Virus record (IMG/VR): IMGVR_UViG_3300042402_000894
Coordinates: 1-43,159 of that record
Source of the DNA: a virus
DNA: 43,159 nt
Strand: one strand, 5' to 3'
Part shown: positions 7,301 through 34,086 of the stretch, one piece after another
How positions within the stretch are numbered: the stretch's first letter is position 1
Layout of the letters: every line of letters begins with the position of its first letter
Translations under genes and position numbers: made by a program
The notes under the pieces: generated by a model
What the model was told of the DNA's origin: nothing
Seen by the model: only the letters and a program-made list of their open reading frames with translations
The model's database searches: none

Positions 7301-10300
7301 GAGTTATTGGTGCAGTACTTTCATCATCATATGCATTTGTTGCAGAAACGGCAAGAAATGTTACTGGATTTGACTCAGCATCATTATCAGCATTGAATGA
7401 TATTCAAAACTTAGTTAGAAATTCTCAAACATCATCAATGAGTGTGTTTAGGGCAGTAAGTTCTTCTTACGCACTAACCGCATCATATGCATTAAACGCA
7501 GGACAAGGTAGTGGTACTGAATTATTTATATACCAAACAAGTTCATTAGTAAAAGCACAAGTAGGTAAAATTCACTTTACTGGTTCTGGTGTTGATGTAA
7601 TATCGTCTGGTTCGGATGGTGTATTGGTAAGAATATTAGGTGGTGGTGGCGGCGGTGCTGGTTTTGGTGATTTACTTAGTTCACAAACTTCTTCAATGTT
7701 AGTTGGAACTGCATCTTTAGCATTCACCGCATCATATGCAATGTTTGCATTATCTTCTGGTAATACTGATACGGCATCATTCTTACAAATTAATAAAGAC
7801 CAAACAATTAACGCATCACTTACAATTAGTGGTAGTATTGGTGTTAGTGGTAGTATAAGAATAGGTACATTGATATCTGGGTCTTCCGATAATGTAGTTG
7901 TTTGGAATAGTGCAACAAAAATATTAGAGACACGAAATGTAGCAGGTGTACAAGGTTCTTCTGGTTCGGCAGGTTCGGCAGGTACATCTGGAACTGAAGG
8001 CTCGGCAGGTACATCGGGAACTTCTGGTACATCTGGTACGGAAGGTTCGGCAGGTACTTCAGGAACTTCTGGTACAAGTGGTAGTGAGGGCTCTTCTGGA
8101 ACTTCGGGAACTTCTGGTACTGAAGGTTCAGCAGGTACATCTGGAACTTCTGGGTCAACTGGCTCTGATGGTACATCAGGAACTTCTGGAACTTCTGGTA
8201 CATCAGGAACAACTGGTAGTGACGGTACATCTGGAACTTCTGGAACATCGGGCACAACTGGTAGTGAAGGAACATCAGGAACTTCTGGCACAAGCGGCAG
8301 TAGTGGTACTAGTGGAAGTAGTGGTACATCAGGAACTTCTGGCACAAGCGGAACATCAGGAACTTCTGGAACAAGCGGTACATCAGGTACTTCTGGAACT
8401 TCTGGTAGTGGTGGTTCATCTGGCACATCGGGAACTTCTGGCACAAGCGGAAGTACGGGAAGTAGTGGTACTGCTGGTAGTAGTGGAACTTCTGGTACAT
8501 CGGGAAGTAGTGGAAGTAGTGGCACATCAGGAACTTCTGGTTCAACTGGTAGTAGTGGAACATCGGGTACATCTGGTTCAACAGGTACGGGTGGTTCATC
8601 GGGCACATCAGGTTCAGCAGGAACTTCTGGAACAAGAGGCACAAGTGGTAGCGCTGGTTCATCTGGTACATCTGGAACTTCTGGTACAAGTGGTGGTGCG
8701 GGTTCGTCTGGTACAAGTGGTAGTGGTGGTACATCGGGAACTAATGGTAGTGCTGGTTCATCGGGAACTTCTGGAACTTCTGGAACAAGCGGTAGTGATG
8801 GTATAAGTGGAACATCAGGAACGTCTGGCACATCGGGAACTTCTGGAACTTCAGGCTCAACAGGATCATCAGGAACTTCTGGAACTTCTGGTACATCAGG
8901 AACTTCAGGTACAACTGGTTCTGATGGTACATCAGGAACTTCTGGAACTGATGGTACAAGCGGAAGTAGTGGCACATCAGGAACTTCAGGTACAACAGGA
9001 AGTGATGGAACTTCTGGAACTTCTGGTAGTGATGGTTCATCGGGAACAAGCGGAACTTCTGGCACATCGGGAACTTCAGGAACAACTGGTAGCGATGGAA
9101 CTTCTGGTACAAGCGGCACATCGGGAACAAGCGGTAGTGATGGAACTTCTGGCACAAGCGGTTCAACTGGTAGTGATGGTACAAGCGGTACGAGTGGTAT
9201 TGGTACTGATGGAACGTCTGGAACAAGTGGTACGTCTGGAACTTCTGGCAGTGATGGAACTTCAGGAACTTCTGGTACAAATGGCAGTGAGGGAACTTCT
9301 GGCACAAGCGGAATAAGCGGTAGTGATGGAACTTCTGGTACTTCGGGCTCTGACGGAACTTCTGGTACAAGTGGTAGTGATGGAACTTCTGGCACAAGCG
9401 GAATAAGTGGTAGTGATGGAACGTCTGGAACATCAGGCACATCAGGCTCTAATGGAACTTCTGGAACAAGTGGTAGTAATGGTACAAGCGGCACATCTGG
9501 AACTTCTGGAACAAGTGGTATTGGTACGGATGGAACTTCAGGAACAAGCGGAATAAATGGTACTGATGGTACATCGGGAACTTCTGGAAGTGATGGTACG
9601 TCTGGAACTTCTGGAACAAGTGGTTCGGCTGGTACAAGCGGTACATCAGGAACTTCTGGATTAGACGGAACATATTTTGGTAGTAGTGGTACTTCAGGAA
9701 CTTCTGGGACAAGTGGCTCAAGCGGCACAAGTGGTACTTCAGGAACTTCTGGATTAGATGGTACATATTTTGGTAGTAGTGGTACGAGTGGTGTTGGTAC
9801 TGATGGTACATCAGGAACTTCTGGCACAAGCGGAATCAATGGAAGTGATGGAACTTCTGGCACAAGCGGAATCAATGGTAGTGATGGTACATCAGGAACT
9901 TCTGGTTTGGATGGAACATTCTTTGGTACTAATGGAACTAGTGGAGAAAATGGTACTTCGGGAACTTCTGGAGCAGGAACATCAGGAACTTCTGGTACAA
10001 GTGGTACATCAGGAACTTCTGGACAAGATGGAACATTCTTTGGTAGTAGTGGTACGAGTGGAGAAAATGGTACTTCGGGAACTAGTGGAGCAGGAACTTC
10101 TGGTACATCGGGAACTTCTGGAACTTCGGGTACTTCTGGATTGGATGGTACATATTTTGGCTCATCGGGAACTTCTGGTAGTGATGGTACATCGGGAACT
10201 TCTGGAGCAGGTACATCGGGCACTTCTGGCGAAAATGGTACTTCGGGAACTTCTGGGTTAGATGGAACATTCTTTGGTAGTAGTGGTACATCGGGAGAAA

Positions 10301-11499
10301 GTGGAACATCTGGGACTTCGGGAGAAAGTGGAACATCTGGAAGTTCAGGAGAAAGTGGTTCGTCAGGAACTTCTGGTACTTCTGGATTAGATGGTACATT
10401 ATTTGGTAGTAGCGGTACATCTGGAACTTCTGGAACAAGTGGTACAAGCGGAAGTAGTGGTTCATCTGGAACTTCAGGAACTTCTGGTTTAGATGGTACA
10501 TTATTTGGAAGTAGTGGTACGTCTGGAGCTAGTGGTTCATCGGGAACTTCTGGAGTAAGTGGAAGCAGTGGTACATCTGGAACTTCTGGTACATCGGGAA
10601 CTTCTGGCGTTAATGGTACAATGTTTGGGTCATCAGGAACTTCTGGAACATCGGGAGCAATTGGTTCTACTGGGGCGGCAGGTTCGTCTGGTACGAGCGG
10701 TACAAACGCTCCGGGATTTTCATCTGGTACTTCTGGTACTTCTGGATTAGCAGGAACAAGCGGAATAAATGGAACAAGCGGAACTAGCGCTCCGGGATTT
10801 TCATCTGGTACTTCTGGTACTTCTGGATTGACGGGCACGAGTGGAATAAATGGTACGAGTGGTACAAACGCTCCAGGATTTTCTTCTGGAACATCCGGAA
10901 CTTCTGGATTAACTGGAACAAGCGGAATAGATGGTACAAGCGGTACAAACGCTCCGGGATTTTCATCTGGTACTTCTGGTACTTCTGGATTAACTGGAAC
11001 ATCGGGAACATCGGCACCTGGTATAACTTCTGGAACATCTGGTACATCTGGATTTCCGTTAACTGGTACTACAAATAATGGTTTACTTACATATATTGAT
11101 TCACCACAGGGTGTTCAAGTTGAATCTTCGATATTATTTGATGGAACTACTTTATCAGTAATAGGTAACGTAGCATCAACAACATTTAGAGAAACTTATT
11201 CGAATTTAGGAACTGGTGCAAGTGCAACATTGGATTTATCTACGGCAAATAACTTTAGAAGACAATTTAATGGCACTGCAACAGTATCATTCGTAAACGC
11301 ACCAGCAGCAAATGCATTCGGATTTACTTTAGTAGTTGTAAATGCTGGAGCATATTCAATTACATGGCCTGTTAATGTTGATTGGGCAGGTGGAAATGCA
11401 CCATTATTAACATCTTCTGGAACTGATGTTTTAACTTTTTATACTTATGATAATGGTACAACATATTTAGGATTCACAACTGGTAAAAATTTAAGTTAA
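1315..11499 (+). CDS. giant collagen-like tail fibre with cupredoxin domains
   Basis: A 3394-residue, very Ser/Gly/Thr-rich fibre. Residues about 1-90 are a non-repetitive head, presumably for attachment. From about 95 to 1850 there are about 22 copies of a SGSVTASVSPxFGF-type unit, joined by SGSLFVSGG, FFSGSG and LFDIPRSALT segments. Two cupredoxin-like domains (about 500-605 and 1125-1235) interrupt this array. A beta segment near residues 1925-1985 (SLTIVHNLGIRYPMVQVYA) is of a kind common in tail fibres, and SSYALTASYA-type alanine-rich segments follow. Residues 2214-3246 are Gly-X-Y collagen-like. The last ~150 residues are a globular beta tip. No S74 chaperone is present. The gene follows tandem late promoters, and an adhesin candidate and a tail-assembly chaperone lie directly downstream. 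Role: long trimeric host-recognition fibre (inferred from composition and order). Confidence 0.85.
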   Translation: MAISNLLTGRVRVVSPKNVTSDRYQFLDLSQAEPNLGVPSFSASLLTNPAIVVSDDQGNRGFARTISLDQISGSFSGSFQGDGSQLTNIPAATARLIASGSATASFVEGNLVVNTNTTIQGNLNVRDSIFADQLIVNIVSSSIIYSSGSNLFGNTDSNIQQFTGSVRIQSELIGNNITGSSFTGSFTGSFFGDGRDLFNLPQATRLSTGSVTASVSPEFGFKVESIQSGSQFTGSLFVSGNITADFYFGDGSNLKNVPSTVAPRIASGSVTASIAPNTGFIVNTFAQFEFPVSASMFSGSGRGLFDIPRSALTPDALTATLIATGSITASVSPDYGFKVEAGDLGSQFSGSLFVSGGNIRVETGSFFSGSGVGLKDIPRSALTPDALLSTLIASGSVTASVSPDYGFIVVSANSGSQFTGSLFVSGGIEINSGSSYSGSGARLFDIPVKALKDLDLSKISSGSATASISPDKGFIVNTFSTFSGSMIISASAVYHTSESLNTTLNISQYQDITYILNGDIANTNPTLTLVRGITYTINVDAPGHPFWIKTAQSVGQDDLYNDGITNNGAEFGVITFSVASNAPNTLYYNSEYDIFMRGVINVVDTLLKREGELKVIANTNITGNTSIVGNTTITGITNITGGLIVSKQSVFESTITASMFSGSGRGLFDIPRSALTEDAFRIASGSVTASVSPVYGFRVETDKTDISGSVVYGAQFTSSVDISGSLRANIVIANEISGSDISGSFQGDGSRLTNIIVPPQTATRIVSGSVTASVAPNTGFVVTSTDFGSTIIGGLGITGSLFVSGTISLGSGSFFSGSGEKLFNIPRTALTPDALLSTFIASGSVTASVSPNFGFKIESTEKGTQFSGSLFISGAGVFLNSGSFSGSGKNLFDIPISALSDLDTSKIFSGSVTASISPNRGFEVFAATSNFSGSISASVFSGSGRGLFDIPQSALSSEVFRISSGSTTASVSPNFGFRVQSFESGSDFSGSIRIDSSSFIYAEGAFLRNIPRNALTEEALISTEIKSGSVTASVSPNEGFKVTSIESGSQFSGSLFVSGGYIRVETGSFFSGSGAGLSDIPESALSFKINRIASGSATASISPDYGFRVNTFSTISGSFIVSSSNRTIPTYDIDKVFNVSNDGSNSYIFDGAASGSNPTLTLVRNVEYVFNVNATGHPLWIKTVNGPGSNNAYNTWVTNNGEDNGVITFLVSGSAPDTLYYNCQFHGSMAGTINVVDALYIPAEIKLIGETKIEGNITASMFSGSGKGLFDIPQSAISGDTVRIASGSVTASVSPNFGFRVASFESGSDFSGSIRIDSSSFIYSVGTYLREIPRAALTEDALVSSEIKSGSVTASVSPDFGFRVITPFSSSVDESGSFSTQIGSRFTGSVDISGSLFVNDVSGAIYIGSSSFIYGVGTYLRNIPRSALTEDALISTEIKSGSVTASVSPDFGFKVIATDIVSGSIYGSQFTGSVDVSGSLKAFYLIGDGSQITNVQAAASPLIASGSATASVASGDTFIVTTGATGSGLDFQIGTRITGSVDISGSLQSQFFIGDGRFITNVQAAAAPFIGSGSATASVQSGDTFIVTTGATGSAIGSRFTGSVDVSGSVKAFLFIGDGSQLTNVQASAAPLIASGSATASVQSGRQFVVTTLGTFASVGSNSGSYYGSVFTGSVSISGSISSSRFEGDGGGLFNIPASALEDLQLDRIQSGSGRAIIDPLKLDVNVPITAALYIGDGGGLFNIPANALQDLKLDRIISGSVEGVISPNKGLEVNTSVRIFSGSLTVSGSVFVSGGNVVVASGSAFVGDGSGLTNISLANISFETFILKSGSFTASISPDKGFIVNASASIWGDAYIGNNLRAYNITGSNQIYSPHVSGGLYGTYTYQGNGPTASADYDILRYDPTRGHYIPQPETSLTETVSFNNVSSLTIVHNLGIRYPMVQVYATGSEDQILPGTIKSINDDTIQIVFSGLTSGHAVIGSGGSLINGSIPGDRVIGAVLSSSYAFVAETARNVTGFDSASLSALNDIQNLVRNSQTSSMSVFRAVSSSYALTASYALNAGQGSGTELFIYQTSSLVKAQVGKIHFTGSGVDVISSGSDGVLVRILGGGGGGAGFGDLLSSQTSSMLVGTASLAFTASYAMFALSSGNTDTASFLQINKDQTINASLTISGSIGVSGSIRIGTLISGSSDNVVVWNSATKILETRNVAGVQGSSGSAGSAGTSGTEGSAGTSGTSGTSGTEGSAGTSGTSGTSGSEGSSGTSGTSGTEGSAGTSGTSGSTGSDGTSGTSGTSGTSGTTGSDGTSGTSGTSGTTGSEGTSGTSGTSGSSGTSGSSGTSGTSGTSGTSGTSGTSGTSGTSGTSGSGGSSGTSGTSGTSGSTGSSGTAGSSGTSGTSGSSGSSGTSGTSGSTGSSGTSGTSGSTGTGGSSGTSGSAGTSGTRGTSGSAGSSGTSGTSGTSGGAGSSGTSGSGGTSGTNGSAGSSGTSGTSGTSGSDGISGTSGTSGTSGTSGTSGSTGSSGTSGTSGTSGTSGTTGSDGTSGTSGTDGTSGSSGTSGTSGTTGSDGTSGTSGSDGSSGTSGTSGTSGTSGTTGSDGTSGTSGTSGTSGSDGTSGTSGSTGSDGTSGTSGIGTDGTSGTSGTSGTSGSDGTSGTSGTNGSEGTSGTSGISGSDGTSGTSGSDGTSGTSGSDGTSGTSGISGSDGTSGTSGTSGSNGTSGTSGSNGTSGTSGTSGTSGIGTDGTSGTSGINGTDGTSGTSGSDGTSGTSGTSGSAGTSGTSGTSGLDGTYFGSSGTSGTSGTSGSSGTSGTSGTSGLDGTYFGSSGTSGVGTDGTSGTSGTSGINGSDGTSGTSGINGSDGTSGTSGLDGTFFGTNGTSGENGTSGTSGAGTSGTSGTSGTSGTSGQDGTFFGSSGTSGENGTSGTSGAGTSGTSGTSGTSGTSGLDGTYFGSSGTSGSDGTSGTSGAGTSGTSGENGTSGTSGLDGTFFGSSGTSGESGTSGTSGESGTSGSSGESGSSGTSGTSGLDGTLFGSSGTSGTSGTSGTSGSSGSSGTSGTSGLDGTLFGSSGTSGASGSSGTSGVSGSSGTSGTSGTSGTSGVNGTMFGSSGTSGTSGAIGSTGAAGSSGTSGTNAPGFSSGTSGTSGLAGTSGINGTSGTSAPGFSSGTSGTSGLTGTSGINGTSGTNAPGFSSGTSGTSGLTGTSGIDGTSGTNAPGFSSGTSGTSGLTGTSGTSAPGITSGTSGTSGFPLTGTTNNGLLTYIDSPQGVQVESSILFDGTTLSVIGNVASTTFRETYSNLGTGASATLDLSTANNFRRQFNGTATVSFVNAPAANAFGFTLVVVNAGAYSITWPVNVDWAGGNAPLLTSSGTDVLTFYTYDNGTTYLGFTTGKNLS
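2800..3123 (+). other. cupredoxin-like domain 1 with degenerate copper site
   Basis: Within the giant fibre. It contains PTLTLVRGITYTINV, GHPFWIKT (His544), a TNNG segment, then LYYN and an MRGVINVVD end, in the order of a plastocyanin/azurin-like beta sandwich. At the ligand loop the Cys and His positions are Ser590 and Asp593; Met596 remains. Compared with the second copy it has lost two of the expected copper ligands and is probably structural only. Confidence 0.65.
4684..5025 (+). other. cupredoxin-like domain 2 with complete ligand set
   Basis: Within the giant fibre. It has PTLTLVRNVEYVFNV, GHPLWIKT (His1177), VTNNGEDNGVITF, and then YYNCQFHGSMAGTINVVD, giving Cys1223, His1226 and Met1229. 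This His plus Cys-x2-His-x2-Met arrangement fits a type 1 copper site, although plastocyanins typically have a longer His-Met spacing. Copper binding is therefore possible but unproven. Confidence 0.65.
7954..11052 (+). repeat. collagen-like Gly-X-Y tract of the giant fibre (~1030 residues)
   Basis: Residues 2214-3246 are almost entirely Gly-X-Y triplets, mostly GTS, GTE, GSD, GSS, GSA and GIN/GLD. It is broken by nine aromatic interruptions such as GLDGTYFGSSG between 9658 and 10625, and by four APGFSSG segments between about 10711 and 10970. The same peptide is spelled with many synonymous Ser, Thr and Gly codons. Collagen-like fibre shafts are known in phages and are expected to trimerise. 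A long open frame on the minus strand here is a by-product of this composition. Confidence 0.9.
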
Positions 11500-13541: not shown

Positions 13542-16500
13542 ATGGAGTTTAACGGTAATAATCCTAATGGTTTAAATCAGACTAGTGTAAATAGTATATC
13601 ACTTTTTGTAAGTGGTTCTCCTATTTTAAATGCTTCATCTGAATCTATAAGTGTTGTGGGAAACTTCAGTGCTTCTAAAATACAAACGGATGAGATTGAT
13701 TCATTTGGTAATAATCCGTTACAAATAAAAGCAAATACACAAATTAGTGGTTCGGCTAATATTTCATCATCAATATCAGCATCTTTATTTAGAGGAGATG
13801 GTAGTGGATTATTTAATATAAACGCATCATCTATTGGTGATTTGGATAGATTAAAATCAGGTTCTGCAACAGCTATAATTTCTCCAAATAGAGGATTGGA
13901 AATAAATACAGCCGTAACTATAAGAGATTATCTTATTGTAACTGGTAGTGGTATTTTTAGAGGAGATGTTACTGTAGCTGGAAAAATAAATACAACTGAA
14001 TTATTTGCAACATATATTTCATCATCAATAATCTACGCAAGTGGAAGTAATAAATTTGGTGATGCACAAAACGATAAGCAAGAATTTACTGGTAGTGTAG
14101 GAATTACTGGTTCATTATCATTTGGAATTGGCTCACTAAAACCAGATATAACAACCGATGATGTATTGGTTTATAATTCTACAACTGGTAGAATTGGTTT
14201 TAAAACAGCAGCAGCAACATCTGGTACATCGGGAACTTCTGGAACATCAGGTACAACTGGTTCTGCTGGTACATCGGGAACTTCTGGAACTTCTGGCACA
14301 AGCGGCACAAGTGGTACATCAGGAACTTCTGGAAGTAGTGGTACATCTGGCTCTACTGGTAGTGCTGGTACATCGGGAACTTCTGGTTCAACGGGTTCAT
14401 CGGGTACAACGGGTTCGGCCGGTACATCGGGAACTTCTGGAACTTCTGGAAGTAGTGGGACTAGTGGTAGTAGTGGGACTAGTGGCACATCTGGAACTTC
14501 TGGAACAAGTGGTTCAACGGGTTCGGCTGGTACAACAGGTTCATCGGGAACTTCTGGTAGTGGTGGTACAACCGGCTCAGCAGGAACTTCTGGCACAAGC
14601 GGAAGTAGTGGCACATCAGGAACGTCTGGCTCAGCAGGAACTTCTGGTTCAGCCGGAACATCTGGTACGAATGCATCGGCCGGTACATCTGGTGTAAGTG
14701 GTACAACAGGTTCTTCGGGAACTTCTGGAGTAAGTGGTACATCGGGAACTTCTGGTACAAGTGGTACTGCTGGTAGTGGTGGTATAACTGGAGGTGGTGG
14801 TACAAATGGAACTAGTGGAACATCCGGAACTTCTGGTAGTGGTGGCACATCAGGAACTTCTGGAAGTAGAGGTACATCAGGAACTTCTGGTTCATCAGGA
14901 ATAAGTGGAGCAGGTGGAGGTGCTGGTACATCAGGAACTTCTGGTACAAGTGGTACATCAGGAACTTCCGGAAGTGGAGGTACATCAGGAACTTCTGGTA
15001 TAAGTGGAGTACAAGGTTCATCGGGTTCTAATGGAACTTCTGGTACAAGTGGAAGTAGAGGCACAAGTGGTACATCAGGAACTTCTGGTATAAGTGGAGT
15101 ACAAGGTTCATCTGGAACTTCAGGAACTTCTGGTATAAATGGAGTGCAGGGTTCTTCTGGGTCTGCTGGTACAAGTGGTGTAAGTGGTTCTGCTGGAAGT
15201 AGTGGTACAAGTGGAACTTCTGGTGTAAGTGGCTCAGCTGGAAGTAGTGGTACAAGTGGAACTTCTGGTGTAAGTGGTTCTGCTGGAAGTAGTGGTACAT
15301 CCGGAGTAAGTGGTTCTGCTGGTAGTAGTGGTACAAGTGGTAGTAGTGGCACAAGTGGTACATCAGGAACTTCTGGCACAAGCGGAAGTAGTGGTACAAG
15401 TGGTAGTAGTGGAACTTCTGGTGTAAGTGGCTCGGCTGGTAGTAGTGGAACAAGTGGTAGTAGTGGCACAAGTGGTAGTAGTGGTACAAGTGGTAGTAGT
15501 GGCACAAGTGGTACATCAGGAACTTCTGGTACAAGCGGAAGTAGTGGAACAAGCGGAAGTAGTGGAACAAGCGGAACTAGAGGTACATCAGGCACCTCTG
15601 GAACAAGCGGAAGTAGTGGAACATCAGGTTCGTCTGGCACATCAGGAACTTCTGGTTCAGCAGGTACATCGGGATTATTATCATTAGCAGGTACAACTGA
15701 TAATGGTGTAATCACATTAAATGGAACTGCACCAAACGCAACCGTTGAAGCAAATTTAAGATTCGATGGTACTACATTAGCGGTAACTGGTAATGCTACA
15801 ATTAGTGGTGACCTTACTGTAAGTGGTACAACAACATATATTAATACAACAACTTTAAATGTAGGTGATAATATTATTACACTTAACGCAGATATTGGAG
15901 CAGCAACTGCACCAACTGAAAATGCTGGTATAGAAGTTAAGAGAGGAAACGCAGCAACAAAACAATTTATTTGGGATGAGGGTAATGATAGATGGTCATT
16001 TGATGATAATACATATGTAAATGGAAATATTCAGGGAACTGGTAACATTGTTATATCAGGTACAATTAATACTGGACAAGGTGTAACTGAGGTTTATTTA
16101 ATGGACCAAAACGTAAGAACTACCGATGGTGTAACATTCGCAACCGTTAATACTGGACAGGGTGCTAACGAATTATACGCAATGAACCAAAATGTTAGAA
16201 CAACTGATAATGTTCAGTTTACTAATTTAACTGCAACCGGACAGGTTACTCTTAATAATAGTCAAACTAGACCTGCATCTTTAGCAACTCTTAATAACTA
16301 TCATACTAGAATGGGTGGTAGTGATGTTTATCTTAACGTTGCATCATTGGATGGTACATATGGCTATCAGGTAGCATTACAATCTGGTAGAAATAGTGAT
16401 AATGCTAACTTTGGAATGTTATTAAATCCAAATGGTGGCAATATAACTGTTGGACAATATACTGCATTAGGATATACTTTAGGCGTAGCTGGTACTGGAT

Positions 16501-19500
16501 ATTTTACAAGTAATTTAGCAGTTGGTGGTAACACTTATTTAGGTTCAACTTCACAAATATCTTCTGGTAAGGTAAGTATTTGGGCAGGTGGAGCTGGTGG
16601 TGTTGGTTGGAGTACTGGTTTGAATATTGGTGATGCATCAAATTATACTGGATTCATACAAGATGCTGGTGTATCTCGTTGGAGAAACTTTGGTACGGGT
16701 GGATATGATTGGTATAATAGTTCGGCATCCACTCAATTAATGTCATTGAGTAATGCTGGTATTCTATTCGTATCTTCGGAAATTAGAACACCAATATTTC
16801 GTGATAACGATAATACTGCATTTTATCTTGATGCCGCATCAACATCATATTCTCTTAGAATTAATGGAGGTATTGAAACAACTGCACCAAACGGAGCAGT
16901 TCTATTAAAACATTCTGTATCGGAAGCTAATGCTTGGTTATTCCAAGAAAACGCTGCAGATTGGGGACTATATTGGTTTAATACAGGTACACAAGCCGGT
17001 CAAGTAATTGGAGATTATACAACGGTAGGTGCTGAATTATTTGGATTTAGAAATGCAACTACAACTAATGCATACAATCCACCTGATAGTTGGACTGGTG
17101 TAACTGCATCAACTTTTTCAACATGGATGCTATCTAATTTTAGTGGTTATCTTTGGACAGCTGGAACTCAATTTTCCGCTACGGATATGAGAGCTCCAAT
17201 ATTCAGAGATTCTGCTGACCCATCAAATTATTATTTAGACCCTAATTCACGTTCGATATTATCTTCTTTACAAACAGGAGGTGGCATATCAACTAACACC
17301 AATACTGGAGCAACTATGTTTGGTATGAAATCCGAAGGTGGAAAGTATTTAACTCATAATGCGTTTGGACAAGATGGTGGATATAATTTTCCATCTACAA
17401 CATATGTAACAAACAATAGTAATTCCGCAGCAGGTAATACAACATTTAGAGGAAACGGAACATATCAAGGACATATAGAATCGGGAAGAGTTCCAATTGA
17501 TGCTACAAAAACATATAAAGTATCAGTTTGGATGAGAACTGTAAGTGGTTCGCCGGTTTGTTATCTTTCTTATAGACAACATTATTGGGATTCTGTAGGA
17601 AACCCTGGTAATGGTGGTTGGGGAAATCCATATTTTTATTCCGGTGTACCATCTACTTCTTGGACCGAATATACAATGACAATAGGACCAGCTGGTTCTG
17701 GTGCTGGATATACTCATATGAGTGGAGTTAAATTTGCAGAGCTTGGTTGGTTACACAATTATACAGGAGATGGTGCGGCTTTGGCTGAAATTCAAGGATT
17801 TAAAATTGAAGAAGTAGATAACTTATTAGCAAATAATACCGTTGTATTGGGTGATTTATACGCAAGTAGATTCCTTGATAACAATGATAGTAGTTTTTTA
17901 TTAGACCCAACTTCAACTTCTAGACTTACTATATTAACATTAACATCTACTTTAAATATTCCTAATAACGCATTAATTTCTGTTAATGGTGAGCCTGATG
18001 TTTGGGGAGCTAGATTTAGAACAACAACAAGTACTACAAACCTTGGCGCGGCATTAAAAAATATTATTTGGACAGGTGGTGGTTCAACTGAAGGATTTGC
18101 CATAAGTGGAGTAGGAACTGGTGGTTATGCATTGGAAGTAAGAAATGATGGTATAGTTTGGGCTAGAAATTCTTTTAGAGCACCATCAATATTAAGCGAT
18201 TATTGGTATGATAGTGGTGGTACATTTGTAGCTAGAGCAGGTAGTGGTGCTGGTACAACAAGACATATAAATCTTTCAACCTCTACAACTGACCCATCAT
18301 CAGCATCTGTTGATAGTGGTATTACTTGGGGAGCACGAAGTGATTCGCAACCATATTACTTAATTTATAATAGATTACAAAATTATAATGGAAACTATAA
18401 CAAGCTTACATTAGCTTGGCACACTGGTATTCATATTGGAGCAGAAGCATATTATGGAGGAACTAGAATTTATAATAACTCACCATTTTTAGGCACGGAA
18501 ATTGCATCATTTGGTAGAGGTGATAACTATGTAAGGTCAGAGTATGGTATTCTATCTCCAATTTATTATGATATAAGTGATACTGGATATTTTTTAGACC
18601 CAAGTAATAATGGAAATGGTTTGCGTGTTTATGGTATGGCTAGAATCGGTGGATGGTCTGGCGGTAACTATAATGAAAACATTAGATTAGTAGATGCTGG
18701 AAATAACTATTCTGTAATTACTTTTGGTGCTAGTGGTGATGCTGGAGCAGGTAGATTTAATATATTAAAAAATCCATCCGACCAACTTGAACTTAGAAAT
18801 GTAAGTTCCACAACGTTTTGGTATTGGGACCAAGGTGGTATTGCATATTCAACTACTTCTGTAAGAGCACCATTATTTTATGATAGAGATAATACTAACT
18901 ATTATATAGAACCTTACGGATATAGTGAACTTGCTAACCTTGGGCATGTGATGACAATTACTAAATTGGCAACATCTCCAAATAGTAGAGCATTAACGGT
19001 AGCAAATAATCAGGGTGATAACTCTTGGGGTATAGTTGCAGAATTTAGAGTTAATGGCTCTCCTGGTACCGATAGACCATCAATATTATTCTCTAATGGA
19101 TTTGATAGTCAAACATGGAGTTGTGGATATGGTTACGCAGACTCTGCATACTTTAGAATCAATCATGACCATGGATTTAGAAATGGTTCTTGGGGTGTTA
19201 CTGATTTCTATGTTGATAGAGGTGGTAACTCATATTCTGTTGGTTCATCAAGAGCACCAATATTTTATGACCAAGATAATACTGGATATTATTTAAACCC
19301 TAACGCAACATTCAATTTAAATTTGAATAGTGGTGGTGTAACTTTCAACGGAGATACTTCTGGTATTCACGTTATAAACGCTGAAGGCGTTAGTTCTAAT
19401 GTAAGAGTTGGGGCAGCATGGGGTAGACCTGGTGTTTATAATAGCCCATATTTTTGTATAGGAGCTGAATCATTTATTGAATTCCGTATAGGTAATGTGC

Positions 19501-21137
19501 AAAATGGTTTTGTAGAAAGTAGCTACTTACAAATGGCAGGTTCATTGAGAGCACCAATATTCTATGATTCAAATGACACAGGATATTACGCAGACCCTAA
19601 TGGTACTTCATATTTCAGTATATTTGGTACTCTTAAAATGAGAGCAGATACCAATAGAGCATACGGAGATAACTCTGGTTGGTGGACACATGACCCTTAT
19701 GGGCAAGGATGGGGTAAACCTTATGGTTCGTTCCGTTCATTGGAGGTATCAACTTCTGGTAACTTCTCTACGGAGCCGGCAATGTTCCGTATTCACCAAT
19801 GGGGTTCTGGTTCTTGTGAGTGGTGGAAACCTCAAGGTACTACTGTTTATTTAAGAGAAACTCCTGGCGGTGGTGGTTCTTGGTTTACTAGATATGTGAT
19901 TGAAAGATATGCGGAAAACAATGAAAGTTTTAGAGCACCAATATTCTATGATACCAATAATACTGGATATTATATAGACCCTAACGGATTTACTGAAATT
20001 TTTGGTGGATTAAGAATGAGTGGTGGACATGGTAACTCTACAATAAGAAACCGATTATTGGCATCAAACAATGGAGCTGGTACTGGTCTTGTTCATATGC
20101 AGTGGTGGTGTTCTGAACCAGGTAACACTTGGGATTGGGGTGGATTTGGATACAACGTTGATAATACATATCATGATGGTTCGGGTCCTTACTACTTTAG
20201 TAGACCTAACACATCATTTGGACAAGCATACTTCAGATTTAGTACGGCAGGTAATGCATATTTCTATAATACAAATACTGGAGGTAGTCGTGTTTCTACT
20301 ATGGATTGGTACACCGATGGTACATCATATGCACACAACTACTTAACTGGAGGTAACTCATTAAGAGCACCAATATTTTATGATTCAAACGATACTGGAT
20401 ATTATGTGAATCCTAATGGTACATCTCGTATTGGCGGCCTTCAAATTAGTGGGGCATCTTCTTCACAAAATGAAATTCGTTTCTTTGGAGTTGTGGGTGA
20501 TAACCCTGGTTCATATAACCACGCTGGTATATTTGAAAGAATTTGGAGAAATGGAGATGAATCTGAATTGTTAATATTCAAAGGTAATGACCCTGACGTA
20601 TCAACTATACATGACCGTTTGAGACTTGCGGCTTGTGGTAGAGTTGTATTTCATTCATATAACACATATGGTAATATTGATGATTACATGTCAGCATCTG
20701 GTACTGGTAACATTAATGGTTCTGGATTCTTCAATGGTAATGACCTTTATGTAACCGGTAACGTAGTTGCATACTATTCTGATGAGAGATTAAAAAATAT
20801 TATTGGTGTAATTCCTAACGCTCTTGATAAAATAATAAATTTAAGAGGTTTCTATTATACAAATAATGAAACAGCAAAAAAATGGGGTTATACTGATGAT
20901 AGTATTCAATTGGGGTTATCGGCACAGGAAGTTCAAAAAGTTTTTCCTGAAGTAGTAACTCCTGCTGGATTTGATGTTGAAGCAGATGGAAACTCTATAT
21001 CTGGCGAAAATTATTTGACTGTTCAATATGATAGATTGATACCTGTATTAGTTGAAGCTATTAAAGAATTGAAAGGTGAGTTGGATTTAGCAAAAGCTGA
21101 AATTAACCAATTAAGAGAGGAAATATCAAAAAAGTAG
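13542..21137 (+). CDS. giant tail fibre with collagen shaft and S74 self-cleaving chaperone
   Basis: 2531 residues. Residues 1-225: fibre head with one SGSATAIISPNRGL repeat. 226-711: collagen-like Gly-X-Y shaft. About 765-840: a common tail-fibre beta domain (LNVGDNIITLN, ENAGIEVKRGN, DRWSFDD). About 1305-1425: a jelly-roll, carbohydrate-binding-like segment (TYKVSVWMRTVSGSPVCYL, SWTEYTMTIGP). From about 1080 to 2290: nine copies of a RAPIFYDxNDTGYYxDPNGTS unit. C-terminus: peptidase_S74 intramolecular chaperone beginning SDERLKN, with the Ser2413/Lys2418 dyad, then a coiled coil. By analogy with known S74 fibres, cleavage before Ser2413 would release the last ~119 residues after trimerisation. 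A second, probably receptor-binding, fibre. Confidence 0.9.
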   Translation: MEFNGNNPNGLNQTSVNSISLFVSGSPILNASSESISVVGNFSASKIQTDEIDSFGNNPLQIKANTQISGSANISSSISASLFRGDGSGLFNINASSIGDLDRLKSGSATAIISPNRGLEINTAVTIRDYLIVTGSGIFRGDVTVAGKINTTELFATYISSSIIYASGSNKFGDAQNDKQEFTGSVGITGSLSFGIGSLKPDITTDDVLVYNSTTGRIGFKTAAATSGTSGTSGTSGTTGSAGTSGTSGTSGTSGTSGTSGTSGSSGTSGSTGSAGTSGTSGSTGSSGTTGSAGTSGTSGTSGSSGTSGSSGTSGTSGTSGTSGSTGSAGTTGSSGTSGSGGTTGSAGTSGTSGSSGTSGTSGSAGTSGSAGTSGTNASAGTSGVSGTTGSSGTSGVSGTSGTSGTSGTAGSGGITGGGGTNGTSGTSGTSGSGGTSGTSGSRGTSGTSGSSGISGAGGGAGTSGTSGTSGTSGTSGSGGTSGTSGISGVQGSSGSNGTSGTSGSRGTSGTSGTSGISGVQGSSGTSGTSGINGVQGSSGSAGTSGVSGSAGSSGTSGTSGVSGSAGSSGTSGTSGVSGSAGSSGTSGVSGSAGSSGTSGSSGTSGTSGTSGTSGSSGTSGSSGTSGVSGSAGSSGTSGSSGTSGSSGTSGSSGTSGTSGTSGTSGSSGTSGSSGTSGTRGTSGTSGTSGSSGTSGSSGTSGTSGSAGTSGLLSLAGTTDNGVITLNGTAPNATVEANLRFDGTTLAVTGNATISGDLTVSGTTTYINTTTLNVGDNIITLNADIGAATAPTENAGIEVKRGNAATKQFIWDEGNDRWSFDDNTYVNGNIQGTGNIVISGTINTGQGVTEVYLMDQNVRTTDGVTFATVNTGQGANELYAMNQNVRTTDNVQFTNLTATGQVTLNNSQTRPASLATLNNYHTRMGGSDVYLNVASLDGTYGYQVALQSGRNSDNANFGMLLNPNGGNITVGQYTALGYTLGVAGTGYFTSNLAVGGNTYLGSTSQISSGKVSIWAGGAGGVGWSTGLNIGDASNYTGFIQDAGVSRWRNFGTGGYDWYNSSASTQLMSLSNAGILFVSSEIRTPIFRDNDNTAFYLDAASTSYSLRINGGIETTAPNGAVLLKHSVSEANAWLFQENAADWGLYWFNTGTQAGQVIGDYTTVGAELFGFRNATTTNAYNPPDSWTGVTASTFSTWMLSNFSGYLWTAGTQFSATDMRAPIFRDSADPSNYYLDPNSRSILSSLQTGGGISTNTNTGATMFGMKSEGGKYLTHNAFGQDGGYNFPSTTYVTNNSNSAAGNTTFRGNGTYQGHIESGRVPIDATKTYKVSVWMRTVSGSPVCYLSYRQHYWDSVGNPGNGGWGNPYFYSGVPSTSWTEYTMTIGPAGSGAGYTHMSGVKFAELGWLHNYTGDGAALAEIQGFKIEEVDNLLANNTVVLGDLYASRFLDNNDSSFLLDPTSTSRLTILTLTSTLNIPNNALISVNGEPDVWGARFRTTTSTTNLGAALKNIIWTGGGSTEGFAISGVGTGGYALEVRNDGIVWARNSFRAPSILSDYWYDSGGTFVARAGSGAGTTRHINLSTSTTDPSSASVDSGITWGARSDSQPYYLIYNRLQNYNGNYNKLTLAWHTGIHIGAEAYYGGTRIYNNSPFLGTEIASFGRGDNYVRSEYGILSPIYYDISDTGYFLDPSNNGNGLRVYGMARIGGWSGGNYNENIRLVDAGNNYSVITFGASGDAGAGRFNILKNPSDQLELRNVSSTTFWYWDQGGIAYSTTSVRAPLFYDRDNTNYYIEPYGYSELANLGHVMTITKLATSPNSRALTVANNQGDNSWGIVAEFRVNGSPGTDRPSILFSNGFDSQTWSCGYGYADSAYFRINHDHGFRNGSWGVTDFYVDRGGNSYSVGSSRAPIFYDQDNTGYYLNPNATFNLNLNSGGVTFNGDTSGIHVINAEGVSSNVRVGAAWGRPGVYNSPYFCIGAESFIEFRIGNVQNGFVESSYLQMAGSLRAPIFYDSNDTGYYADPNGTSYFSIFGTLKMRADTNRAYGDNSGWWTHDPYGQGWGKPYGSFRSLEVSTSGNFSTEPAMFRIHQWGSGSCEWWKPQGTTVYLRETPGGGGSWFTRYVIERYAENNESFRAPIFYDTNNTGYYIDPNGFTEIFGGLRMSGGHGNSTIRNRLLASNNGAGTGLVHMQWWCSEPGNTWDWGGFGYNVDNTYHDGSGPYYFSRPNTSFGQAYFRFSTAGNAYFYNTNTGGSRVSTMDWYTDGTSYAHNYLTGGNSLRAPIFYDSNDTGYYVNPNGTSRIGGLQISGASSSQNEIRFFGVVGDNPGSYNHAGIFERIWRNGDESELLIFKGNDPDVSTIHDRLRLAACGRVVFHSYNTYGNIDDYMSASGTGNINGSGFFNGNDLYVTGNVVAYYSDERLKNIIGVIPNALDKIINLRGFYYTNNETAKKWGYTDDSIQLGLSAQEVQKVFPEVVTPAGFDVEADGNSISGENYLTVQYDRLIPVLVEAIKELKGELDLAKAEINQLREEISKK
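14217..15674 (+). repeat. collagen-like Gly-X-Y tract of the second fibre (~486 residues)
   Basis: Residues 226-711 are Gly-X-Y triplets dominated by GTS, GSS, GSA and GVS, with few interruptions (for example GGITGGGGTNG near 14780-14810 and GISGVQGSSG near 15000). Compared with the first fibre it lacks the aromatic GLDGTYFG interruptions. Synonymous codons are mixed in the same way. Confidence 0.9.
16786..20430 (+). repeat. RAPIFYD...TGYYxDPNGTS fibre repeats (nine copies)
   Basis: A motif close to RAPIFYDSNDTGYYVNPNGT recurs near 16786, 17190, 17860, 18550, 18861, 19251, 19549, 19932 and 20367, separated by 100-220 variable residues. The early copies are degenerate, the last five well conserved. 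This repeat is familiar from S74-terminated phage fibres, where each unit caps a beta module; the variable inserts are probably the surface-exposed modules. Confidence 0.8.
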
Positions 21138-24098: not shown

Positions 24099-24587
24099 AT
24101 GGCAGAAATATTAGAGTTTAATAAGATGTTCTATACGAACTTCGAACCAAAAATGAAAAACCGCTACATCTTAGAATGGGATGGTGTACCGGGGTATATG
24201 GTTAAGGCAGCATCAAGACCATCAATCCAATTTGAAACAATCACTTTAGACCATATCAACATCAAAAGAAAGTTGCAAGGTAAAGGTGAGTGGCAAGATA
24301 TCACAATTACTCTTTATGACCCAATTGTACCATCAGCTGCACAATCAGTAATGGAGTGGGTTAGATTAGGTCATGAATCAATCACTGGTAGACGTGGATA
24401 TGCAGATTTTTATAAGAAAGATTTGGATTTCTATATGTTAGGACCAGTTGGTGATAAAATTGAGCAATGGAAGATTAAAGGTGCATTCATTCAGCAAGCA
24501 AACTTTGGCGATGTAGCATTTGATTCTAACGAACCTGCAACAATTGAATTAACATTATCTTACGATTACGCTATTCTTGAATACTAA
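24099..24587 (+). CDS. tail tube protein (T4 gp19-like)
   Basis: 162 residues, the usual length for T4-type tube proteins (gp19 is 163). It shows FNKMFYTNFEPKMKNRYIL at the N-terminus, the MVKAASRPSIQFETI segment, the strand KGEWQDITITLYDPIVPSA and C-terminal ATIELTLSYDYAILEY, in the order seen in gp19-family proteins. It polymerises into the inner tube through which DNA passes. It follows the sheath and is closed by a strong terminator, so sheath and tube can be expressed far above the baseplate genes. Confidence 0.93.
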   Translation: MAEILEFNKMFYTNFEPKMKNRYILEWDGVPGYMVKAASRPSIQFETITLDHINIKRKLQGKGEWQDITITLYDPIVPSAAQSVMEWVRLGHESITGRRGYADFYKKDLDFYMLGPVGDKIEQWKIKGAFIQQANFGDVAFDSNEPATIELTLSYDYAILEY

Positions 24588-24696: not shown

Positions 24697-25458
24697 ATGA
24701 CAGAAAAAACATACGATTTTCCAACGGAGGTATTGGATTTACCATCAGGAGGAAAGATTTATCCAAAAGAGAGTCCTCTTTCATCTGGACAAATTACTAT
24801 AAAGTATATGACTGCAAAGGAAGAAGATATCCTTGCATCAACAAATTTAATTAGAAAGGGAATAGTATTAGATAAACTATTTGAATCTATTATTGTTGAT
24901 AATATAAATCCAAATGATATTATAATTGGTGACAAAAACGCTATAGTTTTAGCAACTAGATTGTTAGGATATGGTGCAGATTACCCAATTAGTTTTTACT
25001 CATCTAAAACAGGTGAACAAATTGATGCTGTTGTTGATTTATCAAAAGTACAAACAAAAGAAGTAGATACATCTATTTTTAACAACAAAAATGAATTTGA
25101 ATTTACATTACCTTCAAATGGTAAGAAAATAACATTCAAATTACTTACACATGGTGACGAGTTAGCAATTCAAAAAGATATTGATGCTTTGGAAAAATTA
25201 AACAAAGATTCATCGTTTGAAATTACTACTAGATTACGTCATATGATTAAAAGTGTAGATGGTAATAACGATATATCAGCAATATCTAAATTTGTTAATG
25301 GTATGTTAGCAAAAGATAGTAAGGCCTTAAGAAATTACATAAAATCCATATCTCCTGATGTTGATATGGTATTCACCCACATCCATGAAGATGGAGAAAC
25401 CGAGGTAGTTCCCATTACGATGGGAGTTGGGTTTTTTTGGCCTTCCGAAAAATCATAG
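24697..25458 (+). CDS. T4 gp26-like baseplate hub / tail-assembly protein
   Basis: 253 residues. The N-terminal motif FPTEVLDLPSGGKIYP, then LSSGQITIKYMTAKEEDILA, LIRKGIVLDKLFESIIV and GDKNAIVLATRLLGYGADY, are hallmarks of the T4_baseplate family (PF12322, T4 gp26). The C-terminus ends in VGFFWPSEKS; an FFWP ending is what I recall for this family. In T4, gp26 is a baseplate hub component; in the wider family the position just before the tape measure gene also recalls the tail-assembly chaperone of siphoviruses. The downstream frame overlaps its last 32 bases, and a seven-T run at the FFWP codons would allow a frameshift into it. Role within hub or tape-measure assembly is inferred. Confidence 0.85.
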   Translation: MTEKTYDFPTEVLDLPSGGKIYPKESPLSSGQITIKYMTAKEEDILASTNLIRKGIVLDKLFESIIVDNINPNDIIIGDKNAIVLATRLLGYGADYPISFYSSKTGEQIDAVVDLSKVQTKEVDTSIFNNKNEFEFTLPSNGKKITFKLLTHGDELAIQKDIDALEKLNKDSSFEITTRLRHMIKSVDGNNDISAISKFVNGMLAKDSKALRNYIKSISPDVDMVFTHIHEDGETEVVPITMGVGFFWPSEKS

Positions 25459-25645
25459 TTTAAATCTTCACACTCAAATATTTGAGATGGTGAATTACGG
25501 AAATGGGTTTACGGTAATGGATTTGTATAAAATGCCAACCCATCTTAGAAATTTCTACTACAATAAATTAGTAGATGCTAAGAAAAAAGAGAATGAGCAA
25601 GTAGAAACAGCAAATAAAGCATCTAAAGTTAGGATTAAGAGGTAA
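25427..25645 (+). CDS. small hub-assembly / chaperone extension protein, possibly made by frameshift
   Basis: The frame opens at 25409 and overlaps the end of the gp26-like gene in a different frame. The first available starts are TTG at 25427 and ATG at 25487 (52 residues). The sequence NLHTQIFEMVNYGNGFTVMD, then YKMPTHLRNFYYNKL, resembles the small protein following gp26 in T4-like environmental phages. That similarity begins before the ATG at 25487, favouring either TTG initiation or a shift from the upstream gene at TTTTTTT (25432-25438). The C-terminus is lysine-rich. The arrangement (chaperone, overlapping short frame, then tape measure gene) parallels lambda G/GT/H. Whether it exists as a free protein or only as a fused C-terminus cannot be settled here. 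Confidence 0.65.
   Translation: MGFFGLPKNHSLNLHTQIFEMVNYGNGFTVMDLYKMPTHLRNFYYNKLVDAKKKENEQVETANKASKVRIKR
25432..25438 (+). other. candidate programmed frameshift site (T7 run)
   Basis: GTT GGG TTT TTT TGG in the gp26-like frame contains seven consecutive T. Either a +1 or a -2 slip here keeps Phe pairing and joins the gp26-like frame to the downstream 25427-25645 frame, just 18 bases before the normal stop. The only open window for this fusion is 25409-25458. Confidence 0.5.
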
Positions 25646-25712: not shown

Positions 25713-25940
25713 ATGGCAAAGAAATACAAAATATCAAAAAAGAATTTAAATGAATTTTTCAGTTTTTTTGGGGATAAGAAAAAACCAGCACAAATTCAAT
25801 CATTAATTGATAAAGACCCGGTTTTACAAAGAATAGATAAAAAAATAGCAGATTTAAACAAAGATGCAGCTGACCAAATGTTTAAGGAATATCCAGATAC
25901 AATTGATATATTAAAAAAATATGGATTATATAAACGATAA
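25713..25940 (+). CDS. small basic protein of the tail module, function unknown
   Basis: 75 residues, rich in Lys and predicted helical, starting MAKKYKISKKNLNEFFSFF and containing PAQIQSLIDKDPVLQRIDKK. No signal peptide, membrane segment or known motif. It is first in the tape measure operon, 13 bases upstream of that gene. Similar small helical proteins sit between the hub/chaperone genes and the tape measure gene in related phages, so an assembly role is conceivable. I do not recognise a family with a defined function. Confidence 0.6.
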   Translation: MAKKYKISKKNLNEFFSFFGDKKKPAQIQSLIDKDPVLQRIDKKIADLNKDAADQMFKEYPDTIDILKKYGLYKR

Positions 25941-25953
25941 TATAATTATATAA

Positions 25954-28353
25954 ATGGCAAAATCGGAAGAAGAAAAATATAAAGGTAATGAAAAGGTACT
26001 TAAGCAGCTTGATGTAGTAAAACGTAAAGAGCTTGAACTAACCGAGCTCAAAAAGGCTCAAAAAAAGCTAGATAAAGAAACTCAGGAGTCTAATAAAAAA
26101 TGGATTGACCAAAAAGAAGCAAATTTAAACAAAGAGAAACAAACATTAGGATATTTTAAGCAACAAGCACAGGAAGCTAAAAAAATTCAAGATGGATTTG
26201 ACGGAGCTACTAAATCATTTGCAAGATTATCTTCAAATGTAAGACAAAGTTTATCGGAAAATAAATCGGGCGGTGGGATATATCTTGGATTGCAAAGACA
26301 AATACTACAATTAGAGGAAGCTAAATTTGACCTTACTGATGAGCAAAGAACACAAAATTTAGAAAATGCATCATTTGCAAAAACTATTACAGATTCATTA
26401 TTGCAACAAGCTGAAGCAACTGAAACAGCAAGGGCAGCTTTATTTGGTCAAACTAAGTTGGAGAAAAAAATAGAAGAAATTGAATTAAGAAGAGCTGAAT
26501 TGGGTGATAATTTGGCAGATAAATTAGTACATGCAATTCATTTAACTGAACAATTGGAACTTAAGGAAGAAAGATTAACTGAAATAAAAGAAGCACAAAA
26601 AGAATTATATGAAGAAGCGCCCGAATCATTAAAAAGTGCAATTGATTTTACTAAAAAGTTAGGAAAAGCAATGACATCGGGCCCATTAGTGGCCATTGTA
26701 TTAGTAGCAGCAGCTTTAGCAGCAGGTATTGAAGCATTTAAGGAATTAGATAAAGCAACCGAAGATTATAGTAAGACTACGGGAATGACTGCCAAACAAA
26801 CGTATCATCTTGCTCATGATGCACATGAAATAGAAATTTCATTTAGAAAAGCTGGTGTAGAGTTAAAACACGTATTTGATGTAGCTAATGATTTGGGAAA
26901 TGTGTTTGGTGATATGACCCACTTCTCACAACAAACATTGGGTGCATTAGCAGGTATTCAAGCTAGAACTGGAGTAACATCAGAAACAGCAGCTAAAGTA
27001 CAGGGTGTATTTGAGCAAGTAGCAGGATATAGTGGAGAAACCGCAGCTAGTTTACAACAACAAATAGCATCATTAGCTCAGCAAGGTAAAGTATCTCCAA
27101 AGGAGGTATTAGAAGATATTGCAGAAAACGCTGAAGCAACTTCTACATTTTTTAAAGGAGATGTTACGGCACTTAAAAATCAAGTAATACAAGCACACCA
27201 GTTAGGTACAACATTAACTAAAGTTGCAAAAACAGCAGAAGCTTTATTGGATTTTGAAAGTGGTATTGAAGATGAATTATTAGCAGCAACATTCGTTGGT
27301 GGTCAATTCAATTTATCTACTGCTAGAGGATTGGCATATGCTGGTAAGACGGTAGAAGCACAAGAAGAAATCCTAAATCAATTAAATCAGGGAGTTGGAT
27401 TTAGAAACCAAGACATATTTGCACAAAAAGCATTGGCAAAGGCAGCTGGTATGAGTATCGAAGATATCAATAAGCAATTGACAATGAAAGAAAAACTTGC
27501 CCATTTAAGTGGGGAAGATAAAAAAAATGCAGAAGCGGCTATTGCAGCAGGATTGGATGTAAAGGATTTGAATGATGAACAATTGAAGCAAAAGACTGAT
27601 GAGTTTATTAAAGGGCAAAAGATAAATGGACAAATAACTGATTTAGAAAATAGTTTTAAAAGTATAGTTGCTACGGTTGGTGGAGCATTAACTCCTTTAT
27701 TTACAGCATTAGGACCTATACTTCAAGCCGTATTACTCCCTGTTGAATTAATGGCAAAGGGATTTGGTACAATTGTTCATTTTGTTAAAGAGTATTCGGG
27801 AATACTTGGTACAATTGCTATTATTATGGGTACATTATATGCTTATCAAAAAGCAATTGTTATATCTCAAAAAGCGGAAGCATTTTGGAGATTGATGAGT
27901 ATGAGAAGAGCGGCAGCAACGGCATCATTAACAGCATTATCCAATCCGGCCAAAGCCCTTATAGGTTTGGGTGTAGCGTCTTTGGTAGTGGGAGCAGCGG
28001 CTTCTATGATGGCTGGTGATATAAAATCTCCGGCAGATGGAAAAACTCAAGTATCAACAAAAGAAGGTGGATTGTTTACATTATCACCAAATGATGATTT
28101 AGTTGCAGCACCTGGAGCAGCAGCAAAAATGGATATGGCATCAAAAATTGGCAAAGGTGGAAATGTGATATCTTCAAATAACGATGGTGGTAAGTATATG
28201 GCATTATTGGGTAGAGTAGATACTTTAATGCAAAAGCTAACAACAGGAGGAATTACAGCACATGCATATATGGATGGTTCAAAGGTTACGGCAAATGTAG
28301 CAAGTAATGTTAATAAAAGTACTAGAAACAACTTTGCATTAGGACAAGGATAA
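25954..28353 (+). CDS. tail tape measure protein
   Basis: 799 residues. Residues 1-80 and about 125-225 are Lys/Glu-rich coiled coil. A hydrophobic stretch, GPLVAIVLVAAALAAGIEAF, lies near 243-262. The central helical region is rich in Ala/Gln with SGETAASLQQQIASLAQQGK. A second hydrophobic block of about 60 residues (LTPLFTALGPILQAVLLPVE to IIMGTLYAYQ) lies near 580-640. The C-terminus is a small Gly/Asn-rich domain. This mix of long coiled coils with two central membrane-like blocks, directly between the hub/chaperone genes and baseplate genes, is characteristic of tape measure proteins, which set tail length and help DNA cross the inner membrane. T4 gp29 is 590 residues. No peptidase motif noticed. 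Confidence 0.8.
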   Translation: MAKSEEEKYKGNEKVLKQLDVVKRKELELTELKKAQKKLDKETQESNKKWIDQKEANLNKEKQTLGYFKQQAQEAKKIQDGFDGATKSFARLSSNVRQSLSENKSGGGIYLGLQRQILQLEEAKFDLTDEQRTQNLENASFAKTITDSLLQQAEATETARAALFGQTKLEKKIEEIELRRAELGDNLADKLVHAIHLTEQLELKEERLTEIKEAQKELYEEAPESLKSAIDFTKKLGKAMTSGPLVAIVLVAAALAAGIEAFKELDKATEDYSKTTGMTAKQTYHLAHDAHEIEISFRKAGVELKHVFDVANDLGNVFGDMTHFSQQTLGALAGIQARTGVTSETAAKVQGVFEQVAGYSGETAASLQQQIASLAQQGKVSPKEVLEDIAENAEATSTFFKGDVTALKNQVIQAHQLGTTLTKVAKTAEALLDFESGIEDELLAATFVGGQFNLSTARGLAYAGKTVEAQEEILNQLNQGVGFRNQDIFAQKALAKAAGMSIEDINKQLTMKEKLAHLSGEDKKNAEAAIAAGLDVKDLNDEQLKQKTDEFIKGQKINGQITDLENSFKSIVATVGGALTPLFTALGPILQAVLLPVELMAKGFGTIVHFVKEYSGILGTIAIIMGTLYAYQKAIVISQKAEAFWRLMSMRRAAATASLTALSNPAKALIGLGVASLVVGAAASMMAGDIKSPADGKTQVSTKEGGLFTLSPNDDLVAAPGAAAKMDMASKIGKGGNVISSNNDGGKYMALLGRVDTLMQKLTTGGITAHAYMDGSKVTANVASNVNKSTRNNFALGQG

Positions 28354-33700: not shown

Positions 33701-34086
33701 GGGGATGCCATGGACTTGATTGCAATGAGAATGGTAGTACCACACGTAGACAGAAGTGCTAGATGTCTTTAAATCTGTACAAAACAATAACTGACGAAAT
33801 GTCAACTATGACCTTTGATTCTATGATGGAATTCATTGGGGCTTCTGAGTACGCATACGCTGCTTAGTTCATTCCGCATCACTCGTGGAACATTTAAATA
33901 GAAGTGAACAAAACGGAGCTCTACTTATCGGCTCTTAAAAACTGATAGGTTGGTGGAAAGCTGTACTAACCATACGGCCCCAATTATTTTGGAAAGTGAA
34001 TAAGATTAAACTTTACCTAAACGTGTGATATGCTGGTATTATGATTACTTTGTAAGACAGGGGTTCGATTCCCCTCATCTCCACCA
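33701..34086 (+). ncRNA. ssrA: transfer-messenger RNA (tmRNA)
   Basis: The 5' GGGGATG (33701-33707) pairs with CATCTCC (34076-34082), followed by discriminator A and CCA (34084-34086), giving a tRNA-like acceptor. The T arm AGGGG-TTCGATT-CCCCT lies at 34059-34075. The total of 386 bases fits one-piece tmRNAs. A short frame ends at TAG 33865-33867; read back, it ends ...GASEYAYAA. Beginning at GGG 33838 gives a nine-residue tag comparable to Bacteroidota tags such as GENNYALAA. The frame is also open further upstream (ACT at 33790 would give 25 residues), so the resume codon is inferred. The role is rescue of stalled ribosomes with SmpB (not seen in this window). A promoter and terminator flank it, so it is an independent unit. 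Confidence 0.92.

Follow-up and report, generated by a model that had tools for sequence, protein, structure and literature searches.

The window analysed here is the full length of an IMG/VR virus record (G000; 43,159 bases). In this stretch of DNA, a gp26-like gene is flanked by a tail tube gene and a tape measure gene, and it belongs to the gp26/T4_baseplate family PF12322, with a score of 35.7 bits against a curated cut-off of 24.5. Read in its own frame, the gene ends GGG (25429-25431) TTT TTT TGG (25438-25440) CCT TCC GAA AAA TCA TAG (25456-25458), and a second open frame, in +1 (equivalently -2) relative to it, overlaps this end and runs on to 25645. The original prediction proposed that a programmed frameshift joins the two frames, and it described the run of seven T in GGG TTT TTT TGG correctly, as well as the position of the first ATG of the second frame. 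The segment NLHTQIFEMVNYG, which it named as an early part of the second-frame similarity, is indeed found in the +1 frame. There is no earlier ATG, as claimed, but a TTG just before the T run went unmentioned. The pair was also said to lie immediately upstream of the tape measure gene; it is upstream, but a 75-aa ORF intervenes. Phrog and Pfam profile searches gave no family match above chance for this ORF and no convincing family match for the extension on its own. A small ORF is also seen at the place of the 75-aa ORF in some relatives.

Table 1 Features of the gp26-like locus, with positions in the window.
Feature	Position	Strand	Basis
Tail tube gene	24099..24587	+	phrog_4542 E 1.3e-28; PF06841
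gp26-like gene (TAC-N, short form), 253 aa	24697..25458	+	PF12322 E 9.5e-9; phrog_150 E 2.2e-11
GGGAG, SD-like stretch upstream of slip site, putative role	25422..25426	+	Weak SD-like excess in relatives
TTG in extension frame, upstream of T run	25427..25429	+	Not conserved outside closest relatives
Slip site GGG TTT TTT TGG C	25429..25441	+	Sequence; conserved in 345 loci
T7 run within slip site	25432..25438	+	Sequence
+1-frame extension (TAC-C), 68 codons plus stop	25439..25645	+	+1-frame profile matches in 346 loci; protein-level selection
First in-frame ATG of extension, within its conserved part	25487..25489	+	Sequence
Predicted frameshift product (TAC-NC), 315 aa	24697..25645	+	Translation with one base skipped at 25438 or within T run; extended phrog_150 match
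75-aa ORF between extension and tape measure gene	25713..25940	+	ORF list
Tape measure gene	25954..28353	+	phrog_167 E 2.1e-6

The window also holds a full-length tmRNA gene (33701-34086, plus strand; Rfam RF00023, 87.8 bits, E 6.9e-33), which lies within the tail/baseplate gene region, ends in CCA and has the predicted tag DEMSTMTFDSMMEFIGASEYAYAA. Long antisense ORFs at 7572-10838 (minus strand, 1088 aa) and 14171-15715 (minus strand, 514 aa) are probably a by-product of repeats, because they face the Gly-Thr-Ser type tandem repeats of the ORFs at 1315-11499 and 13542-21137.

Reading through the shift lengthens the match of the window to phrog_150 from positions 12-233 to positions 12-271 of 282. 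The same family is covered over 13-280 by T4 gp51, a single ORF, and in cyanophage P-SSM2 over 5-232 by gp26 and 231-278 by gp51. When gp26-type profiles of the +1 loci and of the -1 (cyanophage) loci were compared, they matched with E 1.3e-6 and with the final Phe-Phe in register. A profile of the extension matched cyanophage gp51 more weakly (E 3e-5, probability 72%), and a direct comparison of the extension with T4 gp51 alone was not significant. Judged from these profiles, the extension is homologous to the C-terminal part of gp51, and the window pair is homologous, distantly, to cyanophage gp26/gp51. A structure model of the short form (pLDDT 89.7) matched well to predicted viral baseplate hub proteins and to a predicted baseplate hub assembly chaperone; in the PDB, the highest probability (0.33) was obtained for the HK97 tail assembly chaperone 2ob9, at a non-significant E of 1.8. 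A sequence search of solved structures returned nothing significant for either the gp26-like part or the extension. In T4-like phages, gp26 and gp51 are tail assembly chaperones according to Vladimirov et al. 2022 (doi 10.1016/j.virol.2021.11.003), as that study is cited in PMC12846349 and PMC10885494, and from this literature together with the gene layout and the distant homology we infer a chaperone role for the window pair.

A first scan of viral contigs, with the gp26-like protein as query, gave 80 relatives, among which about 40 distinct junctions keep T7GG with the second frame in +1. With further scans the set grew to more than 400 loci; as some contigs entered it twice (e.g. L281/L372), the number of loci does not equal the number of independent viruses. 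A search with a profile of the extension placed it in +1 in 346 loci, the window included, and in -1 in 38; frame 0 gave no match at all. The -1 set comprises cyanophage-type loci, a split-gene lineage (L276/L281/L372) and one unclassified locus (L369, from LR756511), in which the Phe-Phe motif is absent from the end of the gp26-like ORF. As the profile was built on +1 loci, many other cyanophage loci fall below its threshold, yet these have the same -1 arrangement. In one contig (L003), a difference was seen that breaks the extension.

In all 345 scorable +1 loci, the slip codon is UUU, CUU or CUA, the last of these in five. The most frequent site is TTT TTT TGG (270 loci), followed by TTT CTT TGG (42) and TTC TTT TGG (14), with other sequences in 19. 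Distant isolated phages have the same two-frame arrangement with altered slip sites: we see TTT CTT TGG in immuto, TTT TTT TGG in Mel-JY01 and RM378, TTT TTT CAC in SP-15, TTC TTT CGT in SagM-GXN1 and TTT CTA TTC in the huge phage LR756508. The alignment of homologous loci that the original prediction had proposed thus bears it out, with the slip site and the frame relation both conserved, and the T run recurs in too many independently assembled contigs to be a sequencing error. The locus has overlapping frames upstream of a tape measure gene, a second frame that lacks a conserved start and a conserved slip site, as expected of a tail chaperone frameshift.

Codon usage was compared after clustering 86 relatives at 80% identity; the resulting p-values are rough, as clusters were treated as independent. 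In the clustered loci, the slip-site Phe codon is TTT in 76 of 76, compared with a TTT share of 78% among the remaining Phe codons of these genes (binomial p 7e-9). For the Pro codon that follows UGG, CCT is the choice in 98% of cases, and in 81 of the 82 clustered loci, compared with 35% elsewhere (p 2e-35). No intact T6 in the clustered loci has a T in front of it, compared with 25% of other Phe codons, and L395 is the single later exception. The slip site is, on these codon counts, conserved beyond what chance or the amino acid sequence would give. With CCT in place of CCA, the +1 frame (GGC CTN) retains its Leu, so reading in that frame seems to begin right at the slip site, and the preference is what would be expected if Gly-Leu is read there. 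Further downstream, the ten +1 codons after the gp26 stop (25463-25492), of which eight precede the first ATG, gave approximate dN/dS values of 0.12 for the +1 frame and at least 2.5 for the other two frames, using a simple pairwise count, not corrected for the tree, within the clade of the window. By this measure, the extension is evolving as a protein.

From these comparisons we consider it very likely that short and long tail assembly chaperones are made from the gp26-like gene by +1 ribosomal frameshifting. Most ribosomes would terminate at 25456-25458, giving the short form. In a fraction of them, Phe-tRNA on UUU in the P site (25435-25437), with UGG waiting in the A site, would slip one base forward onto UUU (25436-25438), such that the next codon read is GGC (25439-25441). 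These ribosomes would continue in the overlapping frame and produce the long form with its 68-aa terminal domain. At UUU_U, UUU_C or CUU_U, the P-site tRNA can re-pair one base downstream, and only one of the 345 loci, LIS04 with UUU_AGU, departs from this. The CUU loci resemble prfB in that the tRNA would pass from CUU onto UUU; the CUA loci would permit a +1 slip at the preceding UUU_C. For Flavobacterium phage immuto, the +1 shift predicts the tryptic junction peptide FFPEDGPDGGVDIPIGVSFLGLTPEYR, or ...SFFGLTPEYR.

Pairing of Shine-Dalgarno type upstream of the slip site is in slight excess over synonymous shuffles among the relatives (p 5e-4), and no consistent or stimulating RNA structure was found downstream in the +1 loci. 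The A-site codon UGG is a sense codon and no known strong stimulator of +1 shifting; this and the negative structure result count against the +1 reading.

Ribosomes shifting by -2 at the T run, as has been proposed for phage Mu, would make the same product with one extra Phe at the junction. The original prediction allowed for either +1 or -2 slippage with Phe pairing preserved, and in the window this holds, as Phe-tRNA re-pairs after a -2 slip in TTT TTT TGG just as it does after +1. Across the family the choice narrows: +1 is the most likely direction, because a -2 slip would set Phe-tRNA on UCU in the 14 TTC TTT TGG loci and in one TTC TTT CGT locus, and a single mechanism for the whole family is simpler. 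We therefore regard -2 shifting as unlikely. A -1 shift was rejected for the +1 group, where the -1 frame is closed. Slippage of RNA polymerase on the T run would instead yield mRNAs one base shorter, with no shift by the ribosome. The seven T's of the window and of most relatives would suit such slippage, but the +1 arrangement is kept where the run is broken, as in the TTT CTT TGG and TTC TTT TGG loci and others; at these many loci with an interrupted run, polymerase slippage is unnecessary as an explanation. Homopolymer slippage was thus rejected as a general cause, and we judge transcriptional slippage to be highly improbable.

The extension could also be an independent small gene, with translation beginning at a start codon of its own or resuming by reinitiation past the gp26 stop. 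In the window itself the second frame does contain a TTG and an ATG, which counts against a reading by frameshift only; cyanophage gp51 has a conserved ATG just past the gp26 stop, and two lineages among the relatives have a separate ORF with its own ATG. However, upstream of the extension core, 234 of the 345 loci lack an ATG, and 121 lack ATG, GTG and TTG alike. The TTG of the window is confined to its closest relatives, and in many other relatives the +1 frame is closed by a stop codon right before the run. Nor would an independent gene account for a constraint on codon choice (TTT not TTC, CCT not CCA) that goes beyond the amino acids, or for selection at the protein level on the part of the extension upstream of its ATG. 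With about one third of the loci lacking any start, an own start for the second frame was rejected, and an independent gene seems to us very unlikely. Ribosomal frameshifting in the +1 direction, at an efficiency that would leave the short form as the main product, is what we infer instead.

The original prediction named, as the case against it, homologues with no T run and a good start for the second frame. Such homologues were found only in two small derived lineages with a reorganised junction. In L276/L281/L372, the site reads TTC TTG TAT (L276) or TTC CTT TGG CCA (L281/L372), and the extension is a separate -1-frame ORF that has an ATG to start from. In a tree of 50 gp26-type proteins, this lineage falls inside the +1 group, beside immuto, and most +1 loci are set apart from the cyanophage -1 loci, although the deep branches of the tree are long and unsure. 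In L392/L393, the gp26-like gene ends TTC TTC TGG and the extension is now a separate ORF, with a homing-endonuclease-like ORF of GIY-YIG / I-HmuI-NUMOD-like type (3203-3880; PF01541, E 1.3e-5) exactly between the two. Few as they are, these lineages agree with the notion that the slip site would be retained only where the overlap requires it.

Tail chaperone frameshifting is widely conserved, T4 excepted, according to a 2016 review (PMC5009743), and Vladimirov et al. 2022, on T4-like chaperones, may cover part of the present finding. On sequence evidence, the window very probably has this known kind of frameshift, in a variant for which the isolated phages checked carry no annotation. In lambda, as in the window, a short protein and its frameshift-extended form (G/GT) are encoded before the tape measure gene and the second frame needs no start, but the lambda shift is -1 (PMC5009743) and that of the window most likely +1. 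The lambda G/GT/H arrangement invoked in the original prediction thus fits in layout and in probable function; homology in sequence to lambda G is not established, and the closest homologues are rather the T4-type gp26/gp51 pair. By analogy with lambda gpG/gpGT, one would expect both forms to bind the tape measure protein and the long one to bring in tail tube subunits. The T4-like systems share with the window a homologous short protein (PF12322, phrog_150), a small C-terminal partner near the tape measure gene and a long form that spans both parts; in T4, however, gp51 is one in-frame protein, whereas the window has two frames. A +1 shift is considered very likely for the tail chaperone of the haloarchaeal myovirus HSTV-2 (PMC5009743), which belongs to a different virus group and is likened to the window by direction, not by site.

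Among +1 sites outside tail genes are CUU_UGA of bacterial prfB and UCC_UUU_CGU of influenza PA-X. As is proposed for the window group, UUU or CUU in the P site slides forward onto UUU or UUC; a PA-X-like site, UUC_UUU_CGU, occurs in a Streptococcus phage relative, and immuto-type phages have CUU_UGG_C. The window group differs in that its A site mostly holds UGG, a sense codon unused in prfB and PA-X, and the functions are unrelated. In cyanophages the partner lies in -1 at T_TTT_TTC and has an ATG; in the window group it lies in +1 at UUU_UGG. The gp26-like genes of two large phages, L370 (Atu_ph07) and L371 (PA5oct), also end T_TTT_TTC and have an open -1 frame of about 78-81 codons, which suggests that the -1 version may occur outside cyanophages too.

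Overall, it is likely that a homologous chaperone pair shifts in opposite directions, by -1 at T_TTT_TTC in cyanophages and by +1 at UUU_UGG (or UUU_CGU, CUU_UGG) in the window group; in the former, Phe-Phe is always preceded by T, and in the latter, T almost never precedes an intact T6. If this is true, the +1 group would form a large family of naturally occurring +1 sites whose A-site codon is a sense codon, and the isolated phages examined carry no annotation of it. The comparison widens the evidence for +1 shifting in tail chaperones to a broad set of loci. It also identifies the small C-terminal extension, which has been either left out or entered as a hypothetical protein of its own in isolated phages such as immuto, Mel-JY01, SP-15 and LIS04. 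With homologous genes apparently shifting in opposite directions at the same Phe-Phe site, the sequence rules of frameshift direction would become testable.
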